Assembly (NCBI RefSeq): GCF_008831285.2
Contig: NC_045150.1
Span: forward strand, 2,554,001-2,618,000
Direction: 5' to 3'
DNA: 64,000 nucleotides
Source: Nymphaea colorata
Taxonomy: Eukaryota; Streptophyta; Magnoliopsida; Nymphaeales; Nymphaeaceae
The first letter of the stretch is position 1, and each line of letters starts with the position of its first letter. Shown one piece after another: positions 10,010-63,281 of this stretch. The notes under the pieces were generated by a model. The model saw only the letters and a list, made by a program, of their open reading frames with translations, had not been told where the DNA came from and did no database searches. The position numbers and the translations under genes are program-made.

Positions 10010-10420
10010 TTGGATCTAATTTCGGACCCTTGGCCCAAGTTCACCCTAAAACAGACTTCTAGATCCATATCCAAATTTGAATCTGGACTCTAGTGACAGA
10101 CTTCTATATCCATATCCAAATCAAATTATCGATCCTAGATCCAAAACAAACCTTTAGATCTATGTACAAATTCAAATCTCGATCCTAGATCCAAAACAAA
10201 CCTTTAGACCCATATCTAATCCAAATGCAAGGTTTAAATTTAAAAACCAACTTTAAATCTATATCTTAGATCCAAAATTCACACCTGGATCCATAATACG
10301 AAGCTAAAGTCTGTAATTGAACCCAACAAGCGAAATCAAGTTCAAATTAGGAAGATAGATCCATAAAGCCGCTTTTGGATCCAAATTAGATCCAAAACCA
10401 ATGTTGGATCCAAATCAAGA
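10010..10420. repeat. degenerate GATCC-word array with 50-bp duplication
   Basis: The segment reiterates variants of GATCCAAA, GATCTATAT and CCATATCCAAAT. Its clearest unit, GATCCTAGATCCAAAACAAA, occurs at 10131 and 10181, exactly 50 bp apart. It could be the body of an unrecognised element or a decayed satellite. Confidence 0.7.
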
Positions 10421-11353
10421 ACTTCAAATCAAAATAACAATTTGCAACCCTATTTAGCACTGCATGGACACATGCAAACCCCTCTTTTTTTGTTTTCATC
10501 TCAACCTTGGGCCAAAATTTTAAATATATGTTTTAAAACCAAAACGCCCATCTAACCCTTGATCCGAGCCTTGGGCAATCAACCGAAACACTCTCGCGAT
10601 CAACCAAGCTTGGGACAACCCAAAACGAGCTCGGAACAACCCAAAAAGTAGCCGGATCCATTTTTTATAAAGAGATCATTTTACCCTTCAAAATATACAT
10701 TTTACAATAAATTTTAAATTAATTTTAGTTGGGACCCTCTTGGGAGGCAAAAGCCACCCTTAGTGGCTCATTTTTTAACCAATAGGGGGGCATTTTGCCC
10801 CCATCAGCATGCCCTCGCTAAGGACGTGCTGGCCTGGTGCGCCGAGACAGGTCTGCACCTTTCGGTTTTTTTCCTTTCCTTTCTTTTCCTTTTCATTTAT
10901 TAAAATCATTTTTTTCCCTTAAATCCAAAGATAACCTCCCTGAAAACAGCACAAGAAGAAACTGAAAAAGATCTGCAATTTTTTTTTCTGCCATCTTTTA
11001 TGAATGGCTGACTGGATCGGCATCGACCAACAACAGCAACACAGGCATGATCAGGTCTTCTTAAATAGGAAAACCTGTCAACCTTCGCATTTTTCACAAA
11101 CCAGCTGTCATAAAAAAACATAATTCATAAAAACCTCGTTCTCTGTAATCCAGATGGACCTGATTTCACACTCCAATACCAAAAAATCTAGAAAAAAAAT
11201 CGAGTTTTTTGTGTCCACCCAGACGGCCCCCAGTATTTCCTTTCGGGAGGAGAGAGACGTGGCACCTGTTGGTCGCAAAAGCGAAATTTTCTTTCCAATG
11301 GTGTAATTTCGAAATGTATAATGTCAGAGAGAGAGAGGATTCTCCACTGACGA

Positions 11354-21218: not shown

Positions 21219-21302
<84 letters not shown>

Positions 21303-24300
21303 ACGTTATCACTGGCATAACGTATCGTGTATCGGTCGGGCCGACCTATACGCTGCATCGTAACGTATCGTAGATGTACCGTAACGTATCATAAAATCGA
21401 TTTGTTAATTTAAAAAACACTTAAAAATTAGTAAAAAATCAAGAAAATAGCCAAAAAATTAGAAAAATTAAGAACAATGCATTTCATATAAAAAAACTCA
21501 TCATGCATAAAGAAAATTAATGATTCATCATTCATAAACCATAGGCATATATAACATCAACAAATTCGAAAAATGAAAAGTAAGACTAAGAGATTCAAAA
21601 TAACATATTAAAACATTCATGATCTTTCACAAGTTTGAAGAGCATCTATCATATAGTTTAGATTTTAGAGTGTTGTAGAGTTTAGTAAACTACATCGCGA
21701 CTCCATCAAATCGATGGTTTCTTCCTCAAATCAGTGATTTTTGCAGAAACCAGCAAAATCTCTCCCTCTCACAGGCTTTAGAGAAGTTCAGAGAGAGGGT
21801 CTCGGTTTAAAAGAATGAAGCAAAAAGGGCCTTGGGCCCCATTTTAATATTTAACCTCGTATAGCAGTGGCGGAGCTAGAAAAATTGGCTGGAGGGGCAC
21901 TCATATAAAAATACTCATATCTTGTGGGGCACTTATATATATAAGGATAAATGTTCAAATATGCCTATTTAAAAATAAAGACATTTTAAGAGACTGGTGC
22001 TGCCCACACCAGTCTCCATGTGGCTCTACCACTGCCATATAGTAAGATACGGGGTGTATCGTATGACACACCACCTATATCGTACAATACACTTGATATG
22101 GGTGTGATTCGTAGGCATATCATGTATTGAACCCATATTGTTTGAGATTTCTTCATCCAGACGAGTCGTATTGTATAATACGGGTCCGTATCGTACAATA
22201 TAGATAACACTACTATGAATATATATATTTATATATATAATAAATATATATCTAGGCGCACCCCAGCTCCCAATTTTTTTGGGATGTGTCGCACCTGCAT
22301 CCGCACCGCACCCACACTCCGCATCCGTGTGCCATAGTCTAACTAGAAATGTTGTGAAGCTTGAATTGATGATATGTGAGGGAGCAAAAGCTTGCACCTA
22401 TTCTAGTACTCACTTTTGCTAAGGAGAGCATCACTTTTTTGTTTACAGTGATACTTTGCGCAGTGGTTTGCGTATGCAGAATAATATCCTTATTACATTA
22501 TGCCTCCTACCAACCATGAAAATACACAGAAAATTATCCTATGCATGATTTGGAGTTAGCAGTTGCAATATCTACTTTAAAATTATGGAGGCACTATCTG
22601 TATGCTGAAATCTGTCCAGTATTACAGACCATAAAAATCTAAACTATTTGCTCATTCAAAGAACATTCAACTTGAGAGAAAGAAGATGGCTAAGGATTAA
22701 TTAAGGATTATGACTGCAGAGTAGATTATGAATTGATCTTACCTGCATTCATTTATTATAAACCATAGTCATAAATATTGCCCATATTTTGAGAATATCA
22801 CAATTTTATTGCCAAAAATTAGAAATTTCATTTTATCAGGTAAATATTGTGACATTTTGATACGATCATCAGAAATGAATACTGGGATATTGTTGTGATA
22901 TAGTCCCTTAAGATGTAATCTCTTTTAAGAGATGGGAATGAGATGTGTCTATGTCCTTTCTATCTGTGTTTTTCTCTACTCCATCCGGTTTATTCTCTGC
23001 GTCATATTCGTTCGTCAAGCATCGAACAGTGATGAATCATCAAGACGTGTTAAAAAAAAAGGTGCTGAACGTCCTTTTCTATTCCTCCTATTTTCTGCTC
23101 TCTTTTTCTTCAACCTAAAACAGAGTTGAATCTGTCTATAGAGCCGTTTTGAAATAACTAAGACATGCTCTAAGAAGCATTGATTTTTTTTTTAATCATT
23201 CATTCTATTCTCTGCCATCTTTCCTTCAGCCTATATTAGAATCAAATTTGTGTATGTTCTGCCTTGTTTTTAATCTGCTCATAGAATTCCATATCTTTAT
23301 ATTCTGCCCTATTTTTCAGCAGAATTAAAGATCCATTGTGCTGTTAATTTCATATCTGTTTCACACGGTCTCAGCTCTCTGCATAGCAGGGATTCTACTC
23401 TGTGCATAGCAGGGACTTGATAAGCCAAAAAAAAAGAGAGAAAAGAGCGCTAACGATTGCCTTTCTTGTGACATTCTGTTTGACGACATAAGAAAGTTTC
23501 CCTTCCCATTTATTCATGGATTCTACTTCTAACAATGGCATTTCTTCTGGTTTCTTGACCCAACTTGTGCACCAAAAGCTTACCCATATTAATTATCTAA
23601 CCTGGAAACGACAGATAGTTCCTTTTATAAGGAGCCATGATCTATTTGGGCATCGAGATGGAACTTCCTTTGCCCCACCACAGTTTATCTTTCAAGAAGT
23701 GAAGAATGATAAGGGAGAGTCATCTATCACAACAGAGAAATATCACAATATGTTAAGTGGATGAGGAGTGGCCAATCTCTCGTACTATATTTCACTTACA
23801 CCCTTCAGATGAAGTAGTTGCTACTAATTCTGATGAACTTAGTGCAGCAGAGTTGTGGGACATATTTGTAGACACATATTCTCAAATTTCAGAGATGCGA
23901 GTTTTATAATTAAAGTGAGAATTTCAAAATCTCAAGAAAGGATCAAAACTCGTTATGGAATATTTGACACAAATGGAGTGGATCACATATCAGCTTGCCA
24001 CAATTGGGAATGCAGTTTCAAACCGTGATAAGGTTCAACAGATTCTAAGTGGGCTAGGCCCAGAGTATGATATGTTTTGTACTGCTTTAGAAGTTTTTCA
24101 TACTCTTCCTAGTTTTGAAGAACTCAAGGGTAAACTTCTTCAGCATGAGTTGAGTAGAAAACAAATCTTCGAGATTAGTGATGAAGGTTCTCACAATGTG
24201 CTAAGACTGATAGTAGATGTGGATATGGTCGTGGAGGTAGAGGTTACCAAGCAGGACGAGGATGTGGTCATTTTGGTCAAGGTGGCAAATGAATTTTACC

Positions 24301-36831: not shown

Positions 36832-37145
36832 TAGGGATGTCAATATATCTGATTTGAATTGGATATTCGACCGATCCGATTCGAAAAAATCAGATATGGA
36901 TAAAAATTTAATATCCGATTAAGAAATCGGATCGGATTTGGATTTAATAAATGACATCCGATCGGATTCGGATTCGGATATAAATATAAAAATTGGATTC
37001 GGATCGGATTCAGATTGTAAAATCGGATTTCGGATTCGGATATGACTTTGCTTTATTCGAATTCGAATCCGAATATATGTATATCCGAAAAAACGGATAT
37101 GATTGAAGATGTATCTGATCCGAATCCGATCAGTTGACATCCCTA
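36832..37145. mobile_element. hAT-like MITE with GGATTCGGAT-word arms
   Basis: Perfect 12-bp inverted ends TAGGGATGTCAA / TTGACATCCCTA are flanked by a perfect 8-bp target duplication CTTGTCTG (36824-36831 and 37146-37153). This places it in the hAT-type class. The 314-bp element is filled with reiterations of GGATTCGGAT, ATCGGATCGG and their reverse complements. It encodes nothing; the Ser/Asp-rich open frame on the minus strand is a by-product of the repeats. Confidence 0.9.
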
Positions 37146-37402
37146 CTTGTCTGTCTATTTCAACAGTTAGTGCTCATCTCCAACTAGAGGAGATCACGAG
37201 GGGACTGGTTTAGTTTCCAGTTCATGCTAGAGATAGTCCATGGGATTCGAAGTTCTTTCTCTGTTTTCACTAATTCAAGTTCTTGATTTGCTTTTTTATT
37301 AATTGTTTTGCATATATAATGCAGTAGAGTTGTAGGGGTTCAGGTTCCAGGCCGGTCAACTTGAATGAAGATATTCTGGTCCGGGTGAACGTTAAAGTAG
37401 AC

Positions 37403-37643
37403 GTGGGGGCAGAGCTAGGAATTTTTGTTCGAGGGGCATGTATACAAATTAACTAAATTTTAAAGCATTCAAAAAATTTAGATTTAAATTAATAGTAAAT
37501 TGAATTTTGGGCACAATATACACATAAATAAACAAATGTTAAACTGACAAATTTTGTGAGATGATCCAATATGTGTGAATAAACAAAATTGTGGGACTGT
37601 ATGGGCAACAGTCCACACAAGCCCAAATGTTGCTTTGCCCCTG
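37403..37643. mobile_element. hAT-like MITE, CAGGGGCAGAGCC family, copy 3
   Basis: The left end GTGGGGGCAGAGCTAGG and the right end GCTTTGCCCCTG (reverse complement CAGGGGCAAAGC) are inverted. The interior includes the GAGGGGCATG segment common to the family. No target duplication was recognised. Confidence 0.65.
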
Positions 37644-38136
37644 GGTGGGCGTGCCCGAGTCAAACGTTTTGGAGCCCAGCCAATTTGTGTCATGCATCAA
37701 CGTCATTCAGCGGTAGTAGAACATCACTCTGGAAACATAACACCTATGGGAATCAAATGAGCGTCATGTCATTTTCATGCCATCAACATAATCGTTATGT
37801 TATACTATGCACCTTGGGGCTCAAATTTGGAAGCATTCAAGCTCTACTTCAAAAATGTGGCTTTCAACAATCTGAATTTGCAAAAAAAAAGAAAAAAAGA
37901 TTCACTAATTATAAAAAAATAAAAAAGAATGAAGATAAGGCCGGTTACCTTCCTTCCACACAAATAAACAATGGGAGTATGATCTCATGTGAGTATCACC
38001 AGTGCCGTTCACTTGTTTTGTTGCCCAACCATGGCTGCAGAATATAAAATGCGGGAACTTTTGATTTTTCAGACCTTCCTTTTGCTTATGTACAAGTTTT
38101 TAGTAAGGATTATACTTTTCAAAAAGGTGGCGTAAC

Positions 38137-38290
38137 CAGGGGCAGAGCCAAGGAAGGGTCTGCTTGGGCCGCGGCTCCACTTCAACTTTTTTTATAAAAA
38201 AAAAATTGCAAAAACGATATTTCGGCTCTAGTCAAAATTTAGAAACTTTAATTAGGTCCCTCTAATGAAAAATTTCTAGCTCTGCCTTAG
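38137..38290. mobile_element. hAT-like MITE, CAGGGGCAGAGCC family, copy 4
   Basis: The left end is CAGGGGCAGAGCCAAGG; the right end is CTAGCTCTGCCTTAG (reverse complement CTAAGGCAGAGCTAG). The interior is 154 bp and non-coding. A clear target duplication is not visible. Confidence 0.7.
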
Positions 38291-38637
38291 GAATAATAGA
38301 AGAAATGGAAGCTAATAGGTCTGAATTCCCTAGTGTCAACTCTACATGTGATAAAAAAGGTGTAGAGGAAAGGAAGGTGACACAGATATATAAGTTGAAG
38401 CATGAAGAGATCATCACTTTGAAACATCAAAAACAGTCTCGAATCCTATGAAGATGGATGAAGGGATTTCTTTCTGCTCAGTGAAAGATTCAGTGAAAGA
38501 TTAAGAATTAAATTTGAGCAAAAGATCGAGAATTAAATTTCTGATAACTTGAAAAACAAAAATCGTTAGCTAAAAGCATAAAATAAAATATAGTCATGGA
38601 AGGTAATATTTGACTACTTTAAGAGATACACTTAAGA

Positions 38638-38659
38638 AAAAAAAAAAAAAAAAAAAAAC
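38638..38659 (+). repeat. poly-A tract
   Basis: A run of about 22 A residues with no recognisable retroposon upstream. Confidence 0.85.
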
Positions 38660-38847
38660 AACGCTGGTCTGCTCGTCAACTAGAAACAGTGTTGCGTGCT
38701 GGATGATGTCATCTGAACAATGTTTATTGCCAGAAAATGACTGAAGAAAAAGAATAGTAGTCTCTATATAGAAAACGATGATATGGTACGAATTGGCCAT
38801 CTAACCTTCACCTTTGTAGCTAAAGTTGGTCGGCAAATAAATGCTAA

Positions 38848-38977
38848 AGGACCTGTTTGGATGACACCTGAATTCATGTCGAAAAACTTGTTCAGCATGA
38901 GAACAACATTTGAAAAACCTGTTTAGATTCTGATATCTGGAACTTAACATGATTTACAGACCATCCAAACAGACCAT
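38848..38977. mobile_element. Tourist-like (PIF/Harbinger) MITE
   Basis: Inverted ends AGGACCTGTTTGGATG and CATCCAAACAGACCAT agree at 13 of 16 positions. They are flanked by TAA on both sides (38845-38847 and 38978-38980), the 3-bp target preference of PIF/Harbinger. The element is 130 bp and non-coding. Confidence 0.78.
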
Positions 38978-39286
38978 TAAGTGGGAAAGAGGGTTTGGGT
39001 GGCCGAGTGTTGCCTTTCCCAAGTGAATTGTAGGTCAAAACTCACGGACCACCAGTCGTTGAATTTGGCTGAGTCTGTTAATGAAGTTCAAGCCAAATAG
39101 CTCAGTAGAAATATTGTAAACAATCGGCTCGCATAATGGCTGATGCACGAATGGTTTTAAATGGGTTTTTTATGTTAATATAAATAAAAACAATTTAATA
39201 TTACCTCATTAATATATTTAATTGATTTGATATTATATTAGTCATAAGGCACCATATATATCAGCTCCTTCATTTTAGTGCCCGTT

Positions 39287-39745
39287 AGAAATGTCAATGG
39301 ATCATATTTAAATTGAAAAATATTTTTATCCAGTATGCAGTTTGTCGAATGTTTTAAATGCTCAGATGTGTATATTGTATCTGACTCTGAAAATTAAATT
39401 TGAAATCCGAAACAGATCTAAACCCAACTTTTATATTTACAATGGAATCTGATTTTAAAATTCACAACTGAATCTGAACTGCAATATTATATGCTAAAAC
39501 GCAGGTTCCAAAATATATGGATAGTAGATATAAGATATTTATTTAAAATTAAATTTAATAAATCCAACCGATTATATATTTTGAAATTATATGTCCAACT
39601 GATCAGATGCTCATTCCTTATATCTGAATTTGATCCTATTTTTCAGTCGAATGTTACAAATTTTTCTGTATCTGACTTGCTTGAAGCAATTCAGTTGGGC
39701 ATTGGATTCAGATTCGATCTGAATCCGATTCATTAACATTCTTAT
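39287..39745. mobile_element. old relative of the 36832 MITE
   Basis: The left end AGAAATGTCAATGGAT and right end ATTCATTAACATTCT are degenerate forms of the TAGGGATGTCAA ends. The interior carries diluted GGATTC and GAATCCGA words. No target duplication survives. Confidence 0.6.
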
Positions 39746-40480
39746 TACCAATATAATACACATCAAACACCGCATACGGAATATGGCCAACATTTTCTTA
39801 AAAGGTATCTTCACGCAAATCGTTCAGGTTTAAGAACATCTAAGCGCATTTAGATGACACTCTAAAACGTTGTTTTGAAGACAAAACCAGTGAGTGATCA
39901 AAACTGGGTTTGATACACACCCATGTAGACAACACTGTTTGAAAAATTCAAGCCCAGCTGATCCACACCACTGTTGACAACATTGCTCTTTCCTAAATCT
40001 GGGCGTATGTTCAATCATGATGGATCTTAGATCAAAGGCTAATCTGAAATCCACAATTTATGAGACTCACTGTAGATAGTTTAAACAAATTGTGAATATC
40101 AGCAGTCAGGATTTTATATCCACTAAGGATTCAATTGACATTACATCTTTGGACTCAAGATCCTCAATGATCTCAAATTACCTTAGATTTCAGATCCAAA
40201 GTAAATAAACATAGCCTATGAGTGTAAGGATGTACCTTTTACTAGAAAAGCTGAAACAGTTTATCTGCAAATATATTGCTGGGTTTCTGCCATTCTAATC
40301 AGCAAGGTTCTGCACATCTTAGCACCACCCGATGCTTTCAAGTATATGGCTACAGATAAATGATACAGGAATATTTGATTTGAGAAACGGAGTTTCTTAT
40401 TCTTTTCTTCTCTCCCTTATATGGATGTCAATAAGAATTCCAAATGCAAATCTCCCCGTGGATACACGTAGAGAGGGAAG

Positions 40481-40580
40481 ATAATACACTAATGACACAT
40501 ATATGTCACAGTAAGAAATGTTGTCGTGAGATAATACATTAATGACACATATATGTCACAGTAAGAAATATTGCCGTTTG
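40481..40580. repeat. 50-bp tandem duplication in the ACR3-like 3'UTR
   Basis: ATAATACA(C/T)TAATGACACA begins at 40481 and 40531. Both copies continue TATATGTCACAGTAAGAAAT. The second copy ends within about 10 bp of the stop codon of the minus-strand ACR3-like gene, so it should lie in that gene's 3'UTR. Confidence 0.92.
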
Positions 40581-40588
40581 TTGCACAT

Positions 40589-43500
40589 TCAAGGCAAGAA
40601 TTTCCAAAATAATCTTCCAAAAGAGAAGCTGAATTTAGCCGTCCCCACAGACTGCGAGGGTTTGTCCAAGTCTGGTGCCTTCACATTAAGCAGCATGGTA
40701 TGGCCTATCTCCTTGCGCAGAGACTCAATGGTCTTCATATCCACCGGGTTCCCTGATGCATCCCTCACATAGAACACATTCACAGCTTTGGCACCTACTG
40801 TTGACACCTCCGCACGCATCACAGTGAGCCCGTTTTCGCGTAAGACTCGAGTTACGTCTGATAGCAATCCCACTCTATCCTTGGCACTCAATTCTAGGCT
40901 CACACCCTATGCAAATGACATGAGACAAGGAAGAACTGCCTTTAGTTATAAAAAGGGAACAAGATGTAAAGGGTCTGCATGTATCATGCAGTATGTGAAG
41001 ATTCAAATGTCCTTTGCTTGGGCTGGACCAGTAAGTAGTGAGACAATGCATAAATGTGACTTAGTACAAAGATGGCATACAATTATATTGATCAACCTGG
41101 TAGAAATTCGGTAATTAGTCCCAGACCAGGACTTGCCTTTAGGTGATCAAATGTCGTGTTTTAGGGATCTAAATGAAATTATTGTAATATACAAGGAACA
41201 GTTGGAACTCCAAGCAGAAATCAAGAGACAGGCCAATGGAGAGAAATCAGAGAGACTTCTATGCAACCAAACTTGAAGCAACTCAAATCTAGATCGAAAC
41301 GGAGAATCATACATCTTGCAACAACTTATAATGGCTAAGGGAAAAACAAGGGATTGTTTTTTTCTGCAAACAGTATACGTATATACATACTAATGCAAAA
41401 GCACATTACAAGAGCATGCAATGCACAACCCATGATAATATGAAAATGAATGAGGTCGACTAAGAGCATTATAAAGCATCACATGAAAGTGATGTTATCA
41501 CATTTGACATAATGATACAGATTTTTTTTTTCCTCAATGGCCATGGAACTTGGGGAAAATGGGGGAGATAGAATCCTATTCAAGCAACTGTTCAAAGGAC
41601 AAGTGAATGGGTAACAAAATTCTCATCTCAATATCCAAGAACACCTTATAAACAACTAAAAGGGCAACATAGGAATTCATTAGCATGGAATTTCATGCAC
41701 ATAAGCCCACAAAAATGTTTCAGAGATCTATTACACAAAATAGGAGATGACTCGACATATTATTCAAACTTCAAATGTCCGAGATCATGAATTCAAATGG
41801 CTTTATGTAATGATGTTCAAAGATCAATCAGCTAGTGAAAAGTTCCGCTGATTTTCACCAATCAGGTAATTCAATTGGTGAACAAGGTTTTGTCATTTAC
41901 TCACATCAGATACTCTACGCAGAATAGCAGCCTCGAGACTCCGGATGACATGGTTTTTCTCTGCCTCTGAGTTGAGAGTGCAACCATCCATATGCCTAAT
42001 GTAGTACTCCTGAAAAGTGAAAGCCCAAGTAACTTGCATTAAGTTTCTTGGTTGTCATAAAGAATCTTTTTTTCAGAGAGAATTCTCCTTTGCCCACACT
42101 TGCAGAGATTGGAATCCCTCTCTGAAAAATAATACTGCAGAATTTTCTTCTCAGTTTGATCAAGTAGAGTACATGTTTCATAATAGGAAGAAGTTCACAA
42201 GAAAATTCTTGATTCTTTAAAACAAGTTTTGAAATTCCATCTACCAAACTTGGTCAAGAATCGCTGTGAAGTCCAATTCGTCATCCAAATACCCAATTGC
42301 AAGTCATGGTGCATCTAAGGTGGTCGACTTTGCTGACTTCTGTATCTGGAAGTCTTGGTCCAGCAGAGAGTTCTGGATCAAATAATTCCAGATCCCACAA
42401 CCTGATACAAACCAGACCATAATGTAGGGTATTTTTGCATGGCACAGGAATAGTGCTTTATGCAGCAATGAGCACCAAAGCCTCTTCTGTATTAGCTTAG
42501 TTGTCAAGGTGGCTAGGCGCTGCCTGGTGCCTAGCCTAAAAAGGCATCCAAAAGTTGTTGCAATTTTGCTTATTTATTTTTAATTCTAAAATGTTAGCTT
42601 TATGTTTTATATGTCAAGTTAGCATGTTAGAAAGTTAGGATTAGTCAAATTCAACTTATAAAACTGCAAAATAAAATGTTTAATGCATTGAATTTAAACC
42701 AGATGATAGACTTCTCATGGTAGAACTGAAAATGACCTTTAGACAATATACATGAAACAGAAAATAACCAAAATAATACCTACTTCGAATCTGTGCTCTC
42801 TAAACTGGACCTATGGTAGATGGCAACTGAATATGAACAAATGTGAAAGACTGTAAAAGACGCCCACACAACCCTGACTTAAGTTGTTTAATGCATACAT
42901 TAGCAGAACTCAAATCACACCTACAATCCTAACTCAATCAATTCAGGTGAAAGATAGACCTTGCAAGCAATCTAATTTCTGCACAAATTGTAATTTTCTG
43001 AGATACTTATAGCAAAAATTCTCTGTTTTCAACATAAATTTTGCAACCATTGGGTCAAATCAGAGTCCCTGCAATAAAATTAAGCTAAATTCAAGGGATA
43101 ACATGTCTTGGGAAGCCAAATATCAGAGGCTAAAATCACCCAAACTTCCAAATGGACTAGGCACCAGCACACCTAGTCCTGAGTAGGCACTCCTAGGCGC
43201 TAGCATGGGATATGCACTGATAATTAGCCTATGCCTAGGCGTCGCGTTAACAACTAAGTGTATTAGACTTGTACACCCTTCAGTATGATCACCGAAAGTT
43301 ATCAGGATGCACCGTGTACATCATGAAGGCAGGATAGTGTACAAATGCTTTTATCTAGAAAAGGTATAATTTAGTTGAAGTTTGCATTACCTAATGCCTA
43401 ATTCTAACAGCTGCAGGCATTCAAATACCACCAGTATCCTTTAGGGAACATGATGTCTAGCATGATTACTTATCCCCTATGTCACAGTGGTACGTGGGAA

Positions 43501-46500
43501 GGACCCACGTACCGGTACCTGCACTGCGGTACGTCTTGGTACATTCTTCCTCCTTCTTTCTCATACATAATACTTATGTCACTTTAAATGAACCTATTTT
43601 TTCCTGACGCCTCTTCCTCTTTCTTCCTTACCTTCATACAACATATCTACAACAAAAATGACATCATATATTTATGTTACTTTTTTTGCTGATTTCATTT
43701 GTAATAATTAATTAAAAATATATAACTATTGTCGTACCACCGTACCAAAATTGGCGAAAACGATGTACCCATACCCACTTCCCCATACCAGCACCCGTAC
43801 CCGTACCTATGTGACATAGGTTATCCCATGAAAACCAATACAATGGATTAGAGTCATTAGACTAATCAGAACTTAGAAAAAGCCAATTGAATATGATTCA
43901 AAATACATGGGAGTTGGCCATGTAAACAAAGACAAGAGTAACCGTCCATTCCTGCATCTTAATCACCTAACATGTACTTGATGGACACAACATTCACCTC
44001 TGTGAGGATTGCTTTTCTCTCTCTGCCTCAAACTTTCTTTGATCAAGTTCCTTAAAAAGAAGCAAACCTGAAGGCCCTCTCTCTAGCCCTATCAACAGAC
44101 TCTCCCTTGTAGAATGTAATCTATTAGATTCATGGGTGTGTTATTTATGAGCAAGTTTCACCAATTAGCCACCCACAAAAGCTTCAGCAATTGATAAATT
44201 TGTTAACCAATTAGTGGGTGAAATAATTGAGAGCTAATGCTTAGTCAACTTTATATCCACCTAAATTGTATGTTCGTGTAAACATTGGTCATGTTGGGTC
44301 TTTCTTATATTTTGTTTGATGTGCTTTCCCTGATAAGTTACCAGCATTAACTTTCCTTCAATATCTGTGTCATGGAAACATATTTACAACACTTTAATCC
44401 ATCCCAAGTTCAAAGATATTATTTTCAAATATTTATCTTAAACATATAGTTGGAACTTGGAAGTACTCACTATGCCATCTATGGCACATGAACTCGCCTG
44501 GAAGCGTGCCCACTTGTGTCGACATGGGTGTGGACAATAACCATGTACACTATTGAAAACATTCAGGTTTAGATATGCAAGTGTCTCAATCAGTTTCATT
44601 TGACACAAATTTACAAAGCTATACCTAACTAGCAAACCACGCAGAATATCTTTCGATGTTTCACATCCAAATCCAAAATGTCCCCACCTAGTTAACATTT
44701 AGAGCCATCTACTAAAAATATCAACTACGAACAAATCAGCAAAAACGAAAGCTCTTATACATTAGAACATTCATTGTACCATCTTCTACTTGTTTTACAC
44801 TCCTCAGATTTAAATGAATGATTTTCGGAAAAATAAACAAAATAGAAAATTTTAAAAGAAAACGAATATGAAAAGTCAAAAAGTAAGGTACATGTTTTGT
44901 AAGCTACAGAGATGGAGGAGCAGGACACAGCAATTACCTCTACAACATACAGTAAGCACTCATATAGTGAAAGGGTGAAGCCACTGGGGGGTCTATTTAC
45001 CTGGAGGGCGTAAGGCCCATCGGACACGATGGAAGCGTGGAACACCACGTATTTCATGTCGGTGAGAGTGCACACAGTGTCAAACAACAGCTTGGGGCGG
45101 TCCTTGCACCTTACATTTACCACTGAGTATCCCTTCTCGTCGCATCCCTCCACCGTGATCCTCGGCCGGAAATCACAGCACGGGCCCGCTTTCTCCCCAT
45201 ACCCTCCATCAACCACCAACTCATTGTCCGGGTCGTCGGACATCATCCGATGCAGCCTCCGATCGGTGCGGGTAAGGTCCGTAGAGACGTTTGTGTGGGC
45301 GACGCCGTCCCCGCCACGGAGCACATTGCGGAGGTGTTCCTGGATGTCGGCGAGGCGGGCAGGGTCGTCGAGGCGCCGGGAGCTGGCACTGTCGGTAACG
45401 TAGAAGACGCAGGCAATGCGGGTGTTATGAGACCAGGCTTGTGCAGCCACAACGTTGCAGTTGAGGTCGGCCAGCACCGCGGAGATCTCGGAGAGGAGGC
45501 CCGGCCGGTCGCTGCCCATGAGCTCAATCGCTGTGTACTCTCCCCCGACCGACTGGACGCGCGTCTTAGGAGACCCATTTGCCCCCAGTGCCTGTTAAGG
45601 AATACCACCATCATTTATTTCAAAGGAAAGAAAAAATGAAAGAACGACAAGAATCAGAATTGCACAGGGATTGAACCTCCAATATCATTAAGCAAGAAAT
45701 AACTCCATGAATCATGATACAAACTTCATGGAGTGCACCGGAATGTTCGGTATCTGTCAATGTACCATACTCCTACTCACATACCATCATATACCGTTCT
45801 GTTTTAAACTTCACAAAAAGACTGACTTGATATACAGAACATAAGCTACCATTGATCTTGCTTTATGAACCAGGTAGGGGCAGAGCCTTTTTTTTTCCAT
45901 CAAATGCTGAGCATCTAGTTAACAAATTTTTAATTGGCCATGTGGCAGTGACTTGGGTTTCATGGAGTTGTTTTATATAACTAGACCCAAATTATAAATT
46001 TAAAGTTTTATAAAACTGGCTAGACATAGTCACATAGACCCATTGAGCTCCAACTTGAACCACGTTAGAGAGAACAATTTGGTTGGTACGATTCGCTATG
46101 GAACAACTTTGAACCGGACGTAAACCAGTCTCTCCCCTATCTTTATCATGACTAATAAGTTGCCGGACTTACATGGGCCATGGTGAATAAAATTTTACAG
46201 GGGATCCGAGCTTAAATGCCTAGGTTGATCAACCTCAAATTTTTCGGTTCTGCCAGCTAGATGCATTTTTCTGGTACGTGTTGCGATATCATACTATGAA
46301 AGAAATACGGTGTCAGTTAAGGTCCTCACCTTTTCGATCTGTTCGATCATCTTCGGGTCTGTCACTTTGTTTCCCTGCTGATCCGTGACATGGAAAACTG
46401 CCCAAGGACAAAGCAATACATGCAGTCAGTGACATGCAAAACCGCGCCAAGTAGTTGGTACCCACAAAAGAATCCCAAGCCGTGGCTTGCTTTCCCCTTG

Positions 46501-47392
46501 GTAAGCCACAATTACAGGCTCAAGAATCACAGGTTTGACTTCTTATTCTACGATTGTTGGTCACAAGGTCACACCTGCGATTGAGAGGTAACAGAGAACT
46601 ACGGGCGCAACAAACATGTGGTTGTCTTATGCATCTTACCATAAGAAATCATTAGAACTAAAGGCAAATAAACAGTCATAGGGCAAAGCAAGCAGCAGGA
46701 AAAGTATAGATCAGCCCATGCTGATGTGTGTGTGTGTGTGTGCGGGGGGGGGGGGGGGGGGGGGGTGTGGTGGTGGTGGTTTGACCATTGGCAGAACTAG
46801 AAAGTTTTGGTTAAGGGGTAATAATTAACAAAACTTTGGATCATTTAAGCATATAACAAATAGTTAGAGGCACCACATATAAATACCTAAATGCTTACGG
46901 GCATCTTAGATATACATTTTGGACCCTTTAAATAAATTTTGGACCCTATAGATATGCGAATGTTTGTGGTCAACAGATATGTAAAATTATATGGGACTCT
47001 ATAAGCAACTGTCCTCACATGCCTACATCTGTTTCCACCCTTAGGTTTGACACACTAGCTTGGGCTAATTACTGACGGACGGCCAGTTACTAGCTCAAAT
47101 GACACGGGCATCAAAATCTCTTCTCCCCATAAAAGGTAAATGGTGCGCTAATTGAAGTGCAGCCCGAGCTCCAATGGAGCCCATAACCCTTGGGCTTCCG
47201 GAAGAACTGACCCTTGAGGGCTTCAAAACAGAAAATACTCAACCAGTATTGAGCATCAAATTTTCAGCCTACACAAAAAAGTTTCCTATTTCAATGTCAA
47301 AATACCCAGAACTAACATAATTAATGCAGAACCTACCATCCGCAGTCGATCCAGTAAAGGGTCGAGATGCACAACGAGCCTTTCAACCTCAG

Positions 47393-47424
<32 letters not shown>

Positions 47425-50400
47425 GTCTTTGCAACCAAATTGGACCGTGTAGAAGTGATCTCCATTGGTTGATTTGAATTGTTTGGCTCATGTAGAAATC
47501 AACTTAAAAGTTTGTCGCCCCAGTAATGATATGTTAGTTTACAAGATATGTATGTTTAAACCACTAAATTTTAGCATTTTCATGGGGCTGACTTCTGACA
47601 TACTACGAAATCCTACATACATATCACATTCCAGCAACTTCATGGTAGCTTCTAGTAAAACTCAATTGTGTAAATCACATCTATATGATCAAATTTTATT
47701 ACTGAATAGGTCCGAATCGATTTGCAACTATTCAGGGAAATCAGCAAGTTTTCTTTTTGGACATGAATGACACACACAAGAACAGGCTATTTTTTACCGG
47801 AAAGACTTACACAAGAGGAGCAAGTTGCGAACATAGGCATTTCAGGCCATTTTATAAGTTCGAAATCCAGCTTATACTATGCGTCAGGCAACGTCGTAGA
47901 TGATCGTGAATTTTCCACCATGGCCGGAAAAGGGGGGTCCCAAGCTGCTAATAGTTTCCAACAGACGAGGAACCTCCTTTCCCAGGAAACCAAACAAGGT
48001 GTGACAATTCTCCTTCACCCACTTTCTATTTTTATTTTTCAATTTCCTTACCATCCATGAACCATCCTCCATCAGAGGAGATGTACGCTTTGGAAATGCT
48101 GAGATCAAGGTCGGTCAGGACCTGAACAACTTCCAGCAGTATACCATGCTTGTTCACGCTGTCAACCTGCAGCACGCGGAAAAAAGGAAAAAGGCCAAGT
48201 TCAAGTCAGTACTTGCTTCAATTTTTTGGCTGCCGGAGACAAATTTACGCACATATTTTTCGTTTTTTGGTTTCTTTTCTACACTTCCACGTCTTCTAAG
48301 TTCATAATATTGGAGCTCTGTTTTCTAGGAGCAATAAATAGTGAACCAACCGAACTTTTCGTCTAACACAGGTCAAAGCCCAGTAGATATAGTCAAATGA
48401 GAACACTAGCCATACTAAAAAACATAATGAAAATTTTATAAAAACGTGCCTAATCTTTTAGTGAATAACAAAAACATGTTTAAGTTTCGATTTCGTTCAT
48501 TTAATTGCATATGTTATATAAGAAAGGATGAATGTTCTAGTAACATGAACAAAACTTGATAAAAATACAAACATTAAAGTTTACCATTAACAAAACGTAC
48601 GATGAACGTGAAACTGCAGCGCTTTTCAAGAACGATATATTAAGCAAGAGAAAAAAAATTGTCATACATGAAATATTTCTAAAATATGATATTCATGTAA
48701 GGCACCTTTCGAGATGCTTATACAACGACTTGCCTGCTTCATAAATTTAAAGCTTCTAGCTAGGAATTCGAGATGCTATGCTACAAGTAAGGTTATTGGT
48801 CAGACCGTCAAAAACCAGTACTGGCATGGAATGTCACAAGAAACGAAATGTGATTATTGATTCTCTTTTCACCATCTTATGTGCGTTTTCAGGGTGATGT
48901 TTAACCTCAACTTGTTATCTACATGTGCAACCTGATCACCATTCTTACTTCTACCCTTGATCACAAAAACACATGTTTTTCTTTTGAAAAAATGCGTTAA
49001 AAATATGAAAAAAAGTCGGCTGAATAAAACATAAAAAAAATGATTTTTTTTTTTAATTTTGGTTTTTTTCGTTTTTTTCCCATTTTTTCCATTCTATGTG
49101 TTTTCATGTATTTTCACATTTCCCCCCTTTTTTTTTTGTTCTATGTGTTTTTTCACGTTTTCTTTAATACCATGCCAAACTGTTTGTTTCTATTTTCTAA
49201 TTTTTAAATATACTTATATTTTCATGTTGTTTTATTAGTTTCTCATTTTATTTTTTTCCCCAATTTTTAAGATTTTTAAAATTTACCATATTTTTTTCTG
49301 TATTTTCCATTTTTTAAAGCTTGCAATATTATATCCTAAAAAACTTCACCGTTTAAAATGTGAAAATGATATTTGTGACTGTTTTTACCATTTCCATTGA
49401 GGAAACTGTTGTCAAGGACTTGGCTTTTCACTCAAATCTCAAAAAGGAAGCCTTAGGGTTTCAAATTTATTGAAGAAACTGCAAAGTTTTATGAACTGCA
49501 AATCAATAACGTACAAGCACTATTCTCATGCTTAACTCAAGATAAAATTTCAGAGTAGATTGACTAAGAGATAATCATGTAAAATGTTGTTGTTTAACGT
49601 GTTCTACAGTTATGATAGACAATACGAACGCCTTTAAAGAGTCCTTGACCCAAGACGGACACATATACACCCCAAGGGGTTGGCGCGGTGGGCCTTTAAA
49701 TACCAAGAAGTCAGGGTTCCACTCATGGACACCATGGTCTGAAGAAGCTTAAGTAGGCTTAGGCCTTAACCACCAAGTTACCTTTCCTAGAGTTTTATGC
49801 CGCCAAGAGCACGCTAAGTTTCGTGTTCTGGTATCTCTTCCCCTTGTTACAAATGGACAAATAAACTTTAACCACCACAAAAATATATTGAATTGATGAA
49901 GTTTTTTATGTAATTAGGGGCTGTACATTAGCATTCAAAGAAATTCTTACCAGTTGAGTCCCATTCACTTAAAAAAAAAAAAGTCAACTGTTTCCACGTA
50001 ACTGAAAGGTTAACAACGCCTGGAAAGAGCCCTAAAGGCCTCCTCATCCTCCTATTTCAGGGGCCATGAGCTGCTTTGGCGTCAGCAGCGACAGTAGTGT
50101 ACCCTTTAACATGTCCAACCACTTAAACATGCAGAGCATAACACCCATAACTAGAAACTTGCCTTTAAAGAGGACCTTAGCCCGACCAACTACACAGCCC
50201 AACCCTACCTTGGATCCAAGGATTTTGCTACGAAACATAAATTTAAAATCTACTGTGATGAAATCCAGCTAGTCGTCAGGCTATGTTTCAAACACTGGAG
50301 AGAAGGAGATGAATGCAGCACATTGTCACTCAGGCTTATTGGACGCCCAATTTTGGCGCCCACTAATTAAATTCATCAACCAACTCAAGCTGACTAGATC

Positions 50401-53400
50401 CGACCTCTCAAATTGGATGAGAAATCGGTTGGTAATCCTAGCGACGGCGTTATCAGTTTCAGATCAGCAATTGATATGGAATTATAGATCAGTCGAAGGT
50501 GGAGGAGGGTGCTCAAACAGGAGCTTCAAGAGACGCTAGATGAAGAAGTGAGTGCCCAGCATCAAAAAGCTCGAATCAAGTGGTTGTCCAAGGAGGATCA
50601 TAATATCCCTTTCTTCAAGGAATGGCGAAAGGTTGCACACCAATAACTGCATACACAGAATAGCAGGCAATTAAGACCCCACGAAAATCAGAAACACTTG
50701 TGATGCTTTCTTCTGCGAGCTTTTGGCAATGCTGGAAGACAACGGTGAGACTCGTGGGAGCAGAACAGGGATCTCAAGTCATGGGGGAGGAGAATAGCAA
50801 ACACCTCCATTCTACGACCCTTGAGGAGACAAGAGACATCGTATTTGCATCTGATCCCTACAGGACTCCTCGACCTGATAGTTTCCCAGGTTCCTTATAT
50901 CAGAACCATTGGGAATGCATAGGAAGAGATTTCACAGAAATGGCTAACTCCTTTCTCAGATCTGAGAAAATTAAAAAAAAGTCAAAAGGACAGAAATTGC
51001 CGGATTCAGGACTTTCGGCCAATAGCCTTGTCAAACTCTAAGTACAAATTCCAGTCAAAGTTTTTCGTGGTCAGGATGAATCTGATTTTGACCAAATTAA
51101 TGGAACATAGCTAGCCAGCTTTCTTGCTAAGGCGAAGCCTCGAAGACGCTGTTATTCTACGTCACGAAATTATGAACACACTGTGACACAGTTCCCGTCC
51201 AGCCTGCTGCTTGAAGATCGACCTAGTGAAGGCATATGATTGCGTTAATTGGGAATTCATAAAGTCATCCTTTCGTGCCTTTGAATTTGAAGGAAGAGTG
51301 GATTCAAAGGCTATCAGCGTGCTATTCTACTGCTTCGACTTGTATGATGATCATTTGCTCTCCAGGAGAGTAGTTTGACATGAATTGAAGACTGTGATTG
51401 TGAGGTGGTCCTTTGTCGCCTTAAATTTTTATTATCGTTACAATTTCTCACCTATGTAGCTTCAGTTGTCCCGACCACACATAGTTCTGTATTCCGCTTC
51501 CATGCTAGACAGAGCTGCGACCTTCTGTTTCCAACTACTCCACAAAACAAAGATTTTCTTCAGTGAAAACATAATAACCTGATACTCCTCATGTGAATCT
51601 CCAACTTAGTTTGCATCTGTATAAGCAACAAGATTTTGTCCCTTACAAGAGTAATGATCTTTGTGGTAGAGAAGACCATCCCAAGTTGGCTACTCATATA
51701 TGTCGGTGATATTATTACTACTAGAAATTGTGATAGTCACATTTGTGAAGTGTTAAGGAGTGTCTAAATGTGTTTAGCTCTGGACCTAACTCCAAACATG
51801 TTAGGTCTAGGTGATTTCTTATTTCTCTTATTGTTCTCATGTGTTGTTATTCTCTCAATAATGGCATCTTCTGTAAATTTCAGTAATTGAGGGCATTATT
51901 GCTCAACTTTTAAAGGTCGATATATATATATATATATATATATATAGGTGTGTTTTAGGGTTGAGGCTGCAATATGCAAGCCAGTCGTCTCCCTCTTTAC
52001 CTCTTCTTTGTCTCCTTCAATTTCTTCTATGCTAAAGTACCACTACGATGGACATGCAAGGCTGATGCATCAAAACTTATATGGTATCAGAGCAAAGGTC
52101 TTGTGGTTTCTCCAGAAGGAATGCCCAAAGAAATCTGATTTGTTCTTCCAAGAAAGATAACTATCTACTTAATTTCATCATACCTCTAGTCACCTCATTC
52201 ATCCTTATTCATTGTTTCTCCCTCAGAGATTTCATCATTGCCTCATTTTTCTCACCCTATTCTCCTTTTCTAGTTTGTGTTAATCTCCAAGCTATTTCTT
52301 ATATCCATATCTCTCTTTAATGTCGCAACTTTAACGTCTGAAATATCTCATTCTGTTAATTTCTCTTATGTCCTCACTCTTCTTGACGTCAGTTTATGGT
52401 GTTGAACACTTTCTTCTTCTCTTGCACGTAATTTTCCTTGAAACGTTTGTCGTCTTACTGTATTCAGTCTGCCACTCTGTGTTCAACCACTTGTATTTTG
52501 ACGATATACCTAGAGCTACTTTCCTTGTCCGGTCTGCATTCACTTATTTTATCCTAAAAGATACTTTTATAGCCACAACAATGTCTTTTCCTATGCTTGC
52601 ACAATAACAGATTTATGCACAATTGTCCATCGGTTGAAAAACAAAACATCGTCTTTTAGTTACTGTTGCTTGTGGCACATCATTTACATTAACTTTTGAT
52701 TCTTGTTGCCGGCAAAAATGTTCACTCTCTCACCTAATATTCTTTTGTTTTTGTCTCTTTCATGAATTTCACTTCAAACAACAATTCTTTCAGTTTCTTG
52801 ACCCAACTTGTTTTCCAGAAACTTATGCATACAACTTACCTGACCTAAAAGTGGCAACTAGTTTCTTTTATAAGGAGTCATAATCTATTTGGGCATCTAG
52901 ATGAAACTTCTGTAGACCGACTGCAGTTTATCTTGTAAGAAAGTAAGGATGGCAAAGGAGAATCCATCATGAGGGAGAAAAATCCAGAATATGTCAAATG
53001 GATGAAAAGAGACCAATCGCTTGTGGCATACATCACTTCAACACTTTCAGAGGAGGCACTTATTATTTCTGATGATCTTACTGCAGCACAACTATGAGAT
53101 ATTCTCAAGTGTCAGAGGCAAGAGGTCTAGAGCTGAAGCGAAAATTTCATAATCTCAAGAAAGAATCAAAATATGTTGTGAAATATTTGACTCAGATGAA
53201 AAAGTCACGGATCAGGTTGCCATGATTGGGAGTGCAGTTTTAGATGACAACAAAGTTCAGCAAATTTTAAGTGGACTCAAACCAACATACACGTATTTTG
53301 TACTGCTCTGGTGTTCCTGCTCTGCTCGGTTTTGATGAACTCAAGGCTAAACTGCTTCAGCATGAGATGGATAGGGAACAAATTTCAATGCAGATGATGA

Positions 53401-56400
53401 AATTTCTCATAATGTCTTGATGGCTGGTACTTCAGTTGGGTATGTTTGTGGAGGAGGAAGTTATGAAGGAGGACAAGGGCAATGTCAATTTGGTCAGGTT
53501 GAAAATTTCCTACTCCTAGTATCTCTACAAGAATTAGAAATCAAAGAAGGATCATGACATGTTTTCGATGTAACAAGAAAGGGCGTGTTAAGGAAAATTG
53601 TTAGTAAAATCCACAAAATAAAGGGAATGCTTACGAGGGAGGAGTGTAGAGAACTCAATATAAACACATAAATCTATACCAGATGATTCACAACATATAC
53701 TTATGATTGTGTTTTCAAGATGAACTTCAAACAAAATGATCAAGGACAATAGTAAGTGGATTTTGGGCAGCCATTCATGTCACTAGAAACACAGGTAAAA
53801 TTGCCTAACTTATCTACTTATTCAGAACAAGGATCGATCATCACATTAGATGGATCATATCATTCCATCACTCATACTGGAAATGCACAAATTCTCATGT
53901 CTAATTCTTCATTATCCCTGTCTAATGTCCTCCTTGCTTCAAATAATAAAAAAAATATTGTTTCAGTGTCTAAACATGTTGATTATACACATTCTTCTGT
54001 CAAATTCACTCCCTCTTTTGTGTATGTCAAGGATCTTCAATGAAGAAGACATTTGGTAAAAGAGAATAATATATACTATTTCAAGGAAACTCTACTAACC
54101 ACAGTTCCAGTTTCTTCTTCAATTGATTTACTAGTTGCTTCTTTAATTATTAGTGCATCCACTCAGTTGCGTATTCATAGTTCAGATGTTTTAAATTTAT
54201 ACTAATGTAATAAGCTTGATTTATAACACAACCTTTTGGGTCATTGTACGCGAAGTTTTAATGAAAGACTTATTGCAGGTAATTTCGCATAGAGTCTAGC
54301 TTAGAGTTTAACTCAAAAGTCAAACAGTACCGTAGTTCTCAACTCTATAAAGCCATGTTCTTTTTTATATTTTGAATAAAAGAGATTTTAAATCATTTGA
54401 GATTGTCTATTCTGATGTGTCAAGGCCTACCCCAATTTCTTCATTGCCTGGTAGTTGTTATTATGTTATCTTCATATATTCTTTTTCCCATTATACCTGG
54501 ATACATTTTATGAAAAATAAATCTAAAGCTTTCAAGTTTTTCTGGAACTTTCATGTCTTAATTCAAAACAAACTCTCCTCCAATATTGTGCATTTTGACT
54601 GTGATGGTGAATGAGAGTATTAATCCAAAGACTTTATTGCATATCTTCAAAATAATGAGATGAGTAAACAAATATCTTGCCTGCACACTCTCTAGTAAAA
54701 TGGGGTAGTTGAGTGGAAGCACCGACACATTGCAGAGACTACTTTGAGAATGATGCTAATATGTCAGCTAGCCTTTAGGCAGAGACTTTTCAGATGTTGT
54801 TCATATCATAAATCGATTGCCTATGATTATCTTGGAGCACAAGTATTCTTATTGAGTTCTTTATGGGCAACATCCTGCATATAATGATCCTTGCATATTT
54901 GGTTTCACATAAATACATCTTTGAGAAATAAGTTTTAAGACAAAACATTAAAATGTAGCTTTGTTGAATATGCAGATGAGCATAAGGGATTCAGATGCTA
55001 TGATCCAGGCAGTAAACGAATATAGACTTCGTAGAATGTGGTGTTTGATGAATTTAACTTTCATAAGGAATGTGGCCCCACCGACCCAATCTCACTATAG
55101 AGTAAGATCTATGATCCTATAACTTTGACAAGAAATGTGGCCCCACCGACCCACTCTCATTATAGAGTAAGGTCTATGATCCTTGGTTAAGTTGGGAGCT
55201 TTTGCCCATGGCAGCTCAGCCATGTATCTTCTTGCCCTCTTGTGAGTGCACATGCAAGAAATGTTCAGTCCAACCATGATTGATCTACCATGGAACAAGC
55301 TAAGCCTAGCAATGACTTTTAACATAAAGTAAGCTGCCATTCAACAATTTTTTGGGCTAGTCTATAGTTGAAGAGATCAGGACATGAATGATGAACGAGT
55401 TAGTCAACATGTAAGGAGATCTAAACGAGTTCGGCACCTCATTGATTGATAGATCAGTTATGAAAGCTTCTCTTTGGTTTTCCACTATGTCACCAGGGTG
55501 CGGCAACCCTGGTGACGCACTCGCGTCGACGCGACGCGGGTGCTGGTGCGACCCAGATTCGCACCCAACCCGCACCCTATTGATTTCAGTTTTTTTTAGT
55601 TTTTTTTATCAAATTTGATATTATTAATATATTATAATAATAAATTAATAATAATAATAAATACCCTCGCCGCACCGCTGCAAACGTAATTTTTTGAGAT
55701 GTATCGCACCCAAACCCACACCCCGCATTTTGGTGACATAGGTTTTCCAATTATTTATGTCAAACCTATAAACCTAGTTAATGGCTAAGGGCTATGAATG
55801 AGTAGATAGAAACATTCTATAAATGTGAAACTTGGGAAGTAATATCGGTACCTCAATGGAAGACTACAGTAGGTTCCAAGTGGGTTTAAAGTCAAGTATA
55901 AACTGGATGGTAGCAATGAACTATATAAAAACCACACTGTTTGCCAAATGTTTCACACAATATTTTGGGCAAAACTACGACGAGACTTTCAATCCAGTGG
56001 TTACAATGGATACGATCAGGGTGGGCATCGGGCCTGGGTCTGGCCCCAAAAAAACCAGCCCAGGCCGGTCCAATGGGGCCCGATTCAGCTCAGTAAATTA
56101 TTTAATATTATTTTATTTTATTAACAATATATTTTATTATTAAAAATATTGTTTACACTCAAAATATTTTATTTAATATTTTAAAAAATATTTTTTTTAT
56201 TTAGCTGGGCTGGGCCGGGCTCGGGTTTCTAGCATCGGACCGGGCCGGGCTAGGTACGAGCATTTCTCCCAATGAATTCAAAGGTGCAGTTTTTGTGGAA
56301 GCTTTCTTGATCATTCAATTTTTATTTACGAAGAAAAGATATCTCCAGTTCTTAATAGTTCAACCTCAAATCCATAAATTTCAAGACTTCCGCTGATGTT

Positions 56401-63185: not shown

Positions 63186-63281
63186 CTTCACACTTCTCTG
63201 GCACTTTTCCGGCGGCGCGGCCCTTGTTTGCAGACGGAACGGCGTAGGAGGAAAGACGGGGGCGGCTTTGCTAGCGCACAT

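Follow-up and report, generated by a model that had tools for sequence, protein, structure and literature searches.

Four short elements in one stretch of DNA most probably belong to several separate families of non-autonomous hAT-type MITEs, in each of which a family-specific subterminal word serves as a putative transposase-binding repeat, with no switch of word inside a family (probability of roughly 0.8). This reading draws on the ends of the elements and their 8-bp target duplications (TSDs), an empty site, genome copies with the same word, array differences by whole units, and two unlike ends in the families with CTATGTCAC ends. The elements are real and ordinary in kind, and they are unusually clear in form. 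The stretch analyzed, referred to as the window, comprises 64,000 nucleotides (NC_045150.1, positions 2,554,001 to 2,618,000), and genome searches were carried out against the 407.8-Mb assembly (783 contigs).

As the initial annotation of this DNA had claimed, the elements E1 to E4 (Table 1) have inverted ends and 8-bp duplications. The terminal inverted repeats of the four window copies match at 10 to 12 of 12 bases (E1, 12/12; E2 and E4, 11/12; E3, 10/12), and the TSDs match at 8/8 positions in E1, E2, and E4 and at 7/8 in E3. For the E4 duplication, an extra G matches on the right only when the last base of the element is counted. A blind scan of the window, requiring ends that match at 10/12 bases plus a TSD of 7/8, returned six hits, four of which are E1, E2, E3, and E4; run on eight first-order Markov versions of the window, the same scan found 0 to 3 hits in each. 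Among the most clustered 6-mers in the window, E1 ranks first, E4 third, and E3 seventh. Further clustered 6-mers, GAAGCA at 63281 among them, are located elsewhere in the window. The proteins in the window point to plant nuclear DNA; they include an ACT-domain protein that weakly matches ACR9-type models from plants, a Copia-type gag, and an LRR protein.

Table 1 Positions and characteristics of the elements and their parts in the window
Feature	Position	Strand	Characteristics
E1	36832..37145	+	hAT-type MITE; ends TAGGGATGTCAA; TSD CTTGTCTG; word CGGAT(T)
E2	42496..43258	+	hAT-type MITE; ends CTTAGTTGTCAAGG / CTTAGTTGTTAACG; TSD TGTATTAG; word CTAGGC (GCCTAGGC)
E3	43477..43819	+	hAT-type MITE; ends CTATGTCACA; TSD CTTATCCC/GTTATCCC; word GGTAC/GGTAT, 6-bp steps
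E3 hairpin end	43489..43513	+	GGTACGTGGG-5-CCCACGTACC, immediately internal to left terminal repeat
E4	55485..55741	+	hAT-type MITE; ends CTATGTCACC; TSD GTTTTCCA; word GGTGC, 6-bp steps
E4 hairpin end	55489..55543	+	Two neighbouring stem-loops; first starts within terminal repeat
E4 array end	55697..55741	-	Inward from 55741: terminal repeat, GGTGC-type hexamers, anchor GATACATCT
P1	about 21301..22215 (initial annotation, 21304-22210)	+	Repeat-family member, CGTATCG-type words; limits approximate
N1	21865..22034	+	Nested within P1; ends CAGTGGCGGAGC / CAGTGGTAGAGC; absent in other P1 copies
P2	39286..39744 (initial annotation, 39287-39745)	-	Old reversed E1-family copy; ends TAGAAATGTCAA / TAAGAATGTTAA; words CpG-decayed
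P3	56016..56270 (initial annotation, 56020-56266)	+	GGGCC-word element; member of diverged repeat family
F5	22216..22337	+	E4-like array end, GGTGCG words; right end 22337, left limit uncertain; not in initial annotation

The elements show the 8-bp TSD, the short terminal inverted repeats, and the subterminal word repeats by which hAT elements are recognized. The E1, E2, and E4 families are short, multicopy, and similar in length, and thereby qualify as MITEs. The terminal consensus of hAT elements has an A at position 2 and a G at position 5; TAGGG fits both positions, and CTATG and CTTAG fit position 5 only. Mutator-like elements produce duplications of 9 to 11 bp and CACTA elements duplications of 3 bp, and the 8-bp duplication agrees with neither. 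The earlier assignment to hAT-like elements with words as candidate transposase-binding sites fits these findings and has close published precedents, discussed below.

E4 is inserted in one of two Copia-like copies in the window, whose identity is 70.5% across 2416 aligned bp. When E4 and one TSD are removed, the joined flanks align at 67% to the paralogous Copia-like copy, in an alignment that extends 16 bases beyond the join, and a second aligned piece resumes after a 32-bp shift. The paralogous copy is the empty site for E4.

To assess the words, the best 6-mer present in both arms was compared with 1000 random window pairs and 1000 dinucleotide shuffles. For E1 to E4 in order, 0, 8, 1, and 1 of the random pairs did as well, as did 4, 6, 0, and 0 of the shuffles. 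These tests rule out, at the 6-mer level, chance microsatellite composition, an origin of the words that had been considered at the outset. The 7-mer version is weaker (60, 43, 45, and 11 per 1000 random pairs; 424, 44, 64, and 0 per 1000 shuffles) and is nonsignificant for E1. A word and its reverse complement had been described in both arms of each element; the arrangement departs from this description in E1, E3, and E4. The E1 word is spread through the whole element, beyond the arms: TCGGAT occurs 17 times in total, and 10 of the 16 placed occurrences are more than 100 bp away from either end. Exact E1 words have identical absolute orientation near both ends and the opposite orientation in the middle. 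In E3 and E4, the right arm carries the word in a single orientation and the left arm carries it in both.

The probable relatives P1, P2, and P3 all turned out to be members of repeat families, but none has a TSD at the ends first assigned to it. The 6-mer word of P1 is weaker (27 and 112 of 1000 for random pairs and shuffles, respectively), and its family comprises 1465 first-look candidates in the assembly. P3, with 139 first-look candidates, has no significant 6-mer word (381 and 303 of 1000), though the filter of the test excludes two-letter words such as GGGCC. The 6-mer word of P2 is likewise weaker than those of the four main elements (5 and 12 of 1000). P2 aligns nearly end to end, in reversed orientation, with E1-family copies (best, 62% over 448 columns). 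At the CG sites of these copies, P2 has CA in 151 cases, TG in 97, and CG in 59 (CA or TG, 248); these counts combine 23 non-independent alignments, made with the first 20 of the 29 E1 copies. Judging from these alignments, the P2 word is largely a decayed CGGAT.

To view the families across the genome, the best 40 first-look candidates of each query were scored, so that the families are seen through copies that resemble the query; candidates are not equivalent to confirmed copies. The queries gave 3303 first-look candidates for E1, 687 for E4, 372 for E3, and 145 for E2. A TSD of at least 6/8 was found in 29 of 40 distinct fetched places for E1 (43 rows, 3 repeating L005, L007, and L008), in 28 of 30 fetched copies for E4, and in 19 of 30 for E2 (no ends in 8/30), and 8 of 10 fetched E3 copies have a TSD matching at 7/8 or better; these counts are somewhat raised by an end-finding preference for pairs whose TSD reaches 6/8. 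Fetched copies with one common duplication (L094, L097, and L101; L036 and L038) are probably copies of a single insertion. Copy lengths are 237 to 287 bp in 28/30 E4 copies, 307 to 462 bp in the E1 family, and 713 to 858 bp in the 22/30 E2 copies having ends. E1 itself is a shortened member, most of its fetched genome copies measuring 380 to 462 bp.

A genome search for the shared word in other copies had been called for, and the fetched copies of all four families carry their own family's word, worn in some. Copies with TAGGGATGTCAA ends have CGGAT(T), those with CTATGTCAC ends have GGTGC and GGTAY hexamers, and those with CTTAGTTGTCAAGG ends have GCCTAGGC. Among the ends listed, 2 of the 11 TAGGGATGTCAA-like ones and, by eye, 2 of the 24 CTTAGTTGTCAAGG-like ones are without a word. 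The word and end patterns had no matches in viral and prokaryote contig collections.

In E4 copies, the array end runs from the terminal repeat through NGGTGC units to GATACATCTCAAAAAATTA. Array lengths range from 19 to 62. Of 30 copies, L037 is without the anchor, and 22 of the other 29 have an array length of 2 modulo 6; E4 arrays differ between copies by whole 6-bp units. Over the first 60 bp of 28 E4 copies, the mean pairwise identity is 0.83 at the hairpin end versus 0.61 at the array end. The 83 NGGTGC units of 20 in-phase arrays vary freely at their first base (entropy, 1.41 bits) and are conserved over the GGTGC core (0.16 to 0.91 bits). The hairpin zone of E2 also varies, measuring 12 to 56 bp in 16 of the 19 copies examined (commonest length 19, in 5 copies) and 104 in L054, with 2 copies lacking the anchor. 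The CGGAT-class arrays are nearly fixed in length, with 34 letters from core to anchor in 53 of 55. These 53 arrays depart from the reference form 74 times; CpG positions, which make up 8 of the 19 in the array, account for 56 of the departures, 48 of them transitions. This CpG concentration is the pattern expected for methylated repeats.

Such variation raises the alternative that the words are tandem repeats grown in the arms by neutral satellite or hairpin slippage, with no role in movement. The 6-bp phase of the E4 arrays, the variable length of the E2 hairpin zone, and the strong stems at the E4 hairpin end (see below) all agree with it, and the length steps support the slippage that the initial annotation had suggested. 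However, neighbouring units in the GGTGC arrays are not more alike than in position-matched shuffles (2712/5000 reach the observed value), and there is hence no sign of local homogenization; local slippage copies are thus not seen, despite the 6-bp length steps. The alternative also sits poorly with the same word in both arms across all four families, with a conserved GGTGC core next to a free between-unit base, and with the near-constant CGGAT-class arrays, and we regard it as unlikely.

A further alternative, put forward in the initial annotation, is a specificity switch, in which the word is replaced within one family while the ends are kept and a new or altered transposase recognizes the new word. 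Fetched copies that differ in their ends also differ in their words. The comparison that most favors a switch is that of E3 and E4, which share CTATGTCAC ends yet have GGTAC and GGTGC in ratios of 11:1 versus 0:7 (Fisher P = 1.6e-4; both strands counted, with the palindromic GGTACC counted twice). However, these are two families with CTATGTCAC ends, whose right ends show no likeness past the terminal repeats (293/2000 shuffles reach the observed value), and single arrays mix units. The L059 array (CTAAGTCAC end) contains GGTGCG, GGTATG, GGTTTG, GGTGTG, and GGTACG, and the L045 array (CTATGTCAC end) contains GGTAC, GGTGT, and GGTAT. In 42 phased units from 11 E3-family copies (one copy yielding no unit and two without a TSD), GGT is followed by AC in 23, AT in 10, GC in 7, GT in 1, and CA in 1.

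The flanks of 68 loci, which lie around hAT-type copies and do not sample the genome at random, contain 19 CTA[TA]GTCAC ends (18 with distinct letters; 2 are E3's own). Phased GGT units accompany 8 of the 19 rows (7 distinct), compared with 1.1% of stretches drawn at random from these flanks; 11 of the 18 distinct ends are without a phased GGT pair. Taken over the flanks of these 68 loci, E3, and 10 E3-family copies, the CTATGTCAC words form a graded range round a GGT core. Mixed arrays, together with the CpG decay that largely accounts for the deviant word of P2, rule out a switch within a family as the main reading, and we consider such a switch distinctly improbable.

The second observation on the side of a switch concerns the E1 and E4 families, which have the inner terminal core ATGTCA and the 9-mer anchor GATACATCT in common around different words. 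E1/E4 copy pairs share a word of at least 9 letters at the anchor end in 393/812 cases versus 77/5000 shuffled pairs, and in 0/812 at the other end. The word-blind pattern ATGTCA-N15..45-GATACATCT occurs at 201 genome places versus 6 for the reversed pattern. The 83 sequences listed for this pattern comprise 55 of the CGGAT class, 14 of the GGTGC class, and 14 others (one of them the E4-family copy L030); the pattern was derived from the E1 and E4 families, so that the presence of both classes is expected. No third reiterated word was seen among the 83 sequences listed. The words shared by copy pairs at the anchor end are suggestive of a common descent of the E1 and E4 ends but do not prove it. 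Given common descent, the end might be modular, with the array swapped as a cassette between the fixed ATGTCA core and the GATACATCT anchor, which we put forward as a doubtful possibility.

The two ends of an element were compared by folding the first 60 bp against shuffles. In the E4 family, the hairpin end has a mean z-score of -5.08 (25/28 copies below -2) versus -0.08 (1/28) at the array end; in the E3 family, the values are -3.06 (6/9) and 0.03 (0/9). The two ends of E1 copies have means of -0.64 and -0.29 (3/29 and 0/29 below -2), and those of E2 copies -1.38 and -1.86 (4/19 and 8/19). Based on these family scores, the asymmetry between hairpin and array is restricted to the CTATGTCAC families, E3 and E4, and its extension to all families, including E1 and E2, finds no support in them. 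The E1 window copy alone folds at both ends (z of -2.75 and -4.04). Compensatory changes at the E4 hairpin end amount to 0/308 cells in stem 1 and 5/336 in stem 2, with no pattern that would indicate hairpins maintained through base pairing. Although the hairpin ends of the E3 and E4 families and both ends of the E1 window copy fold strongly, it is very improbable that the arms act as RNA or DNA hairpins, for example in small-RNA production with the words as foldback by-products, since the opposite ends in E3 and E4 are at chance level, the 29 E1 copies show no folding excess, and the E4 stems show no pattern of compensatory change.

hAT dimerization domains (PF05699) are abundant in the assembly: the best 150 of 1113 candidates were scored, all 150 lie above the cutoff, and 15 of them are in open frames of at least 600 codons. 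As for an autonomous partner, none of 40 downstream 901-bp flanks of the PF05699 matches listed (taken from the best 150 of 1113 candidates and including several near-identical copies) combines these ends with words; the flanks contain three weak matches to the ends, all of them without words.

Under the preferred reading of separate hAT-type families, the word is most likely a candidate binding site of the transposase, by analogy with Ac, Tag1, Herves, Kat1, and Hermes. It would be bound by the transposase that mobilizes the family, through its N-terminal zinc finger (BED), and word differences between families would follow from different transposases. The unlike arrangement at the two ends could aid the pairing of one end with the other, as for Hermes. 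Arrays may turn over through gain and loss of whole units, by slippage or repair synthesis, and old copies would lose the word via CpG decay. Several hAT-type families with distinct words and many copies in one genome constitute a set for testing how transposases recognize ends and how words change, and the hexamer arrays, with their variable unit number, offer putative binding sites in naturally graded doses. Where single copies differ in their word, CpG decay can be the cause, and the difference should not be taken as a switch.

SIMPLEHAT of Arabidopsis comprises non-autonomous hAT elements rich in simple-repeat words, and the likeness of the present elements to it is one of general description. 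Among the literature matches listed (titles and abstract openings), no description of variable hexamer arrays in plant hAT MITEs was found, which is no proof of absence, and a search on end motifs gave nothing relevant among the matches listed. Tandem repeats within a MITE are on record in a Xenopus case, cited in PMC2872659. The initial annotation knew of no named description of the word pattern; family-specific subterminal words are nevertheless known for Ac/Ds, Herves, Tag1, Kat1, and Hermes (PMC3260210, PMC3143072, PMC4763223, PMC10368747).

The Ac transposase binds AAACGG hexamers, which according to the cited passages most likely confer specificity (PMC3260210). As in Ac/Ds, the elements described here are short, with conserved ends, 8-bp duplications, and a repeated 6-bp word near the ends; in Ac/Ds, that word is bound by the transposase, and non-autonomous members vary in their interior (PMC3260210). 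The word, the ends, and the array form differ from those of Ac/Ds, with head-to-tail hexamers in copy-variable number at one end of the elements here. Three or more hexamers are missing from 314 of the 331 maize Ds1 elements, and some of the elements that do move possess a single hexamer or none at all (PMC3260210), which indicates that the word array need not be essential.

Herves transposase binds CG/AATTCAT, and Tag1 has two related motifs, AAACCC and TGACCC (PMC3143072). Both resemble the present elements in having an element-specific short motif at both ends, there bound by the transposase; the passages cited from that source mention no hexamer array for them (PMC3143072). In the Kat1 element of Kluyveromyces lactis, AATTCA/TGAATT is repeated between the ends with a polarity that differs between them (PMC4763223); Kat1 is a domesticated single locus, unlike the multicopy families described here. 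With Ac, Herves, Tag1, and Kat1 each having its own word in these accounts, a different word per hAT element is a known state of affairs.

The subterminal repeats of Hermes are bound by BED domains, and at its left end two of them form a quasi-palindrome near the tip that is cooperatively bound by two BED domains (PMC10368747). Like Hermes, the elements in the window have words near both ends in arrangements that differ between the ends, and the hairpin end of the CTATGTCAC families resembles the quasi-palindromic pair at the Hermes left tip (PMC10368747). In contrast to the scattered AAG(T/C) site described for Hermes (PMC10368747), the words in these elements are tandem, with long stems in the CTATGTCAC families.

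The family member at 21301-22215 (P1, approximate limits), which carries CGTATCG-type words, holds a nested element, N1. Its flanking 8-mers, TCGTATAG and CCATATAG, match at 6 of 8 positions when compared by eye. Query positions ~574-745 are missing from at least eight other P1 copies, in which the sequence continues across the gap, and N1 is therefore a later insertion into P1.

Similarity between F5, an array end, and the hAT-type MITE at 55485-55741 (E4) extends past the ends and was reached by none of 2,000 shuffles. F5 was absent from the elements listed in the initial annotation. The blind flank scan, which contributed two further elements, yielded seven matches outside the query elements; a single Markov copy of the complete set of 68 loci gave five.

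Nested, array-end and flank-scan features. L041 and L058 are genome loci fetched with flanks; other positions refer to the window.
Feature	Position	Ends or words	TSD
N1, nested in P1	21865-22034	CAGTGGCGGAGC / CAGTGGTAGAGC	
F5, resembling E4	22216-22337	GGTGCG	
Blind-scan element	L041 2793-3087	CTATGTCAC / CTAAGTCAC	7/8
Blind-scan element	L058 2358-2726	CTATGTCAC / CTAAGTCAC	8/8

Two other repeats were seen in the window: GATCCAAA and AGATCCA recur quasi-periodically at 10040-10430 (period 25 or 50 bp), and a Copia-like copy contains a 147-bp tandem duplication (27051-27344; halves 97% alike).

The open frame at 9140-9472 matches DUF659 weakly (E = 8.8e-5; 22.7 bits, under the cut-off of 34.7) and is perhaps a decayed piece of a hAT-type transposase. 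Elsewhere in the genome, four hAT copies (L109-L111 and L123) are at least 99% identical across 901 bp downstream of their hAT domains, where the word CTTTGA is reiterated; their frames span 657 codons in three copies and 592 in one. These copies probably represent a recent hAT family of a different kind.
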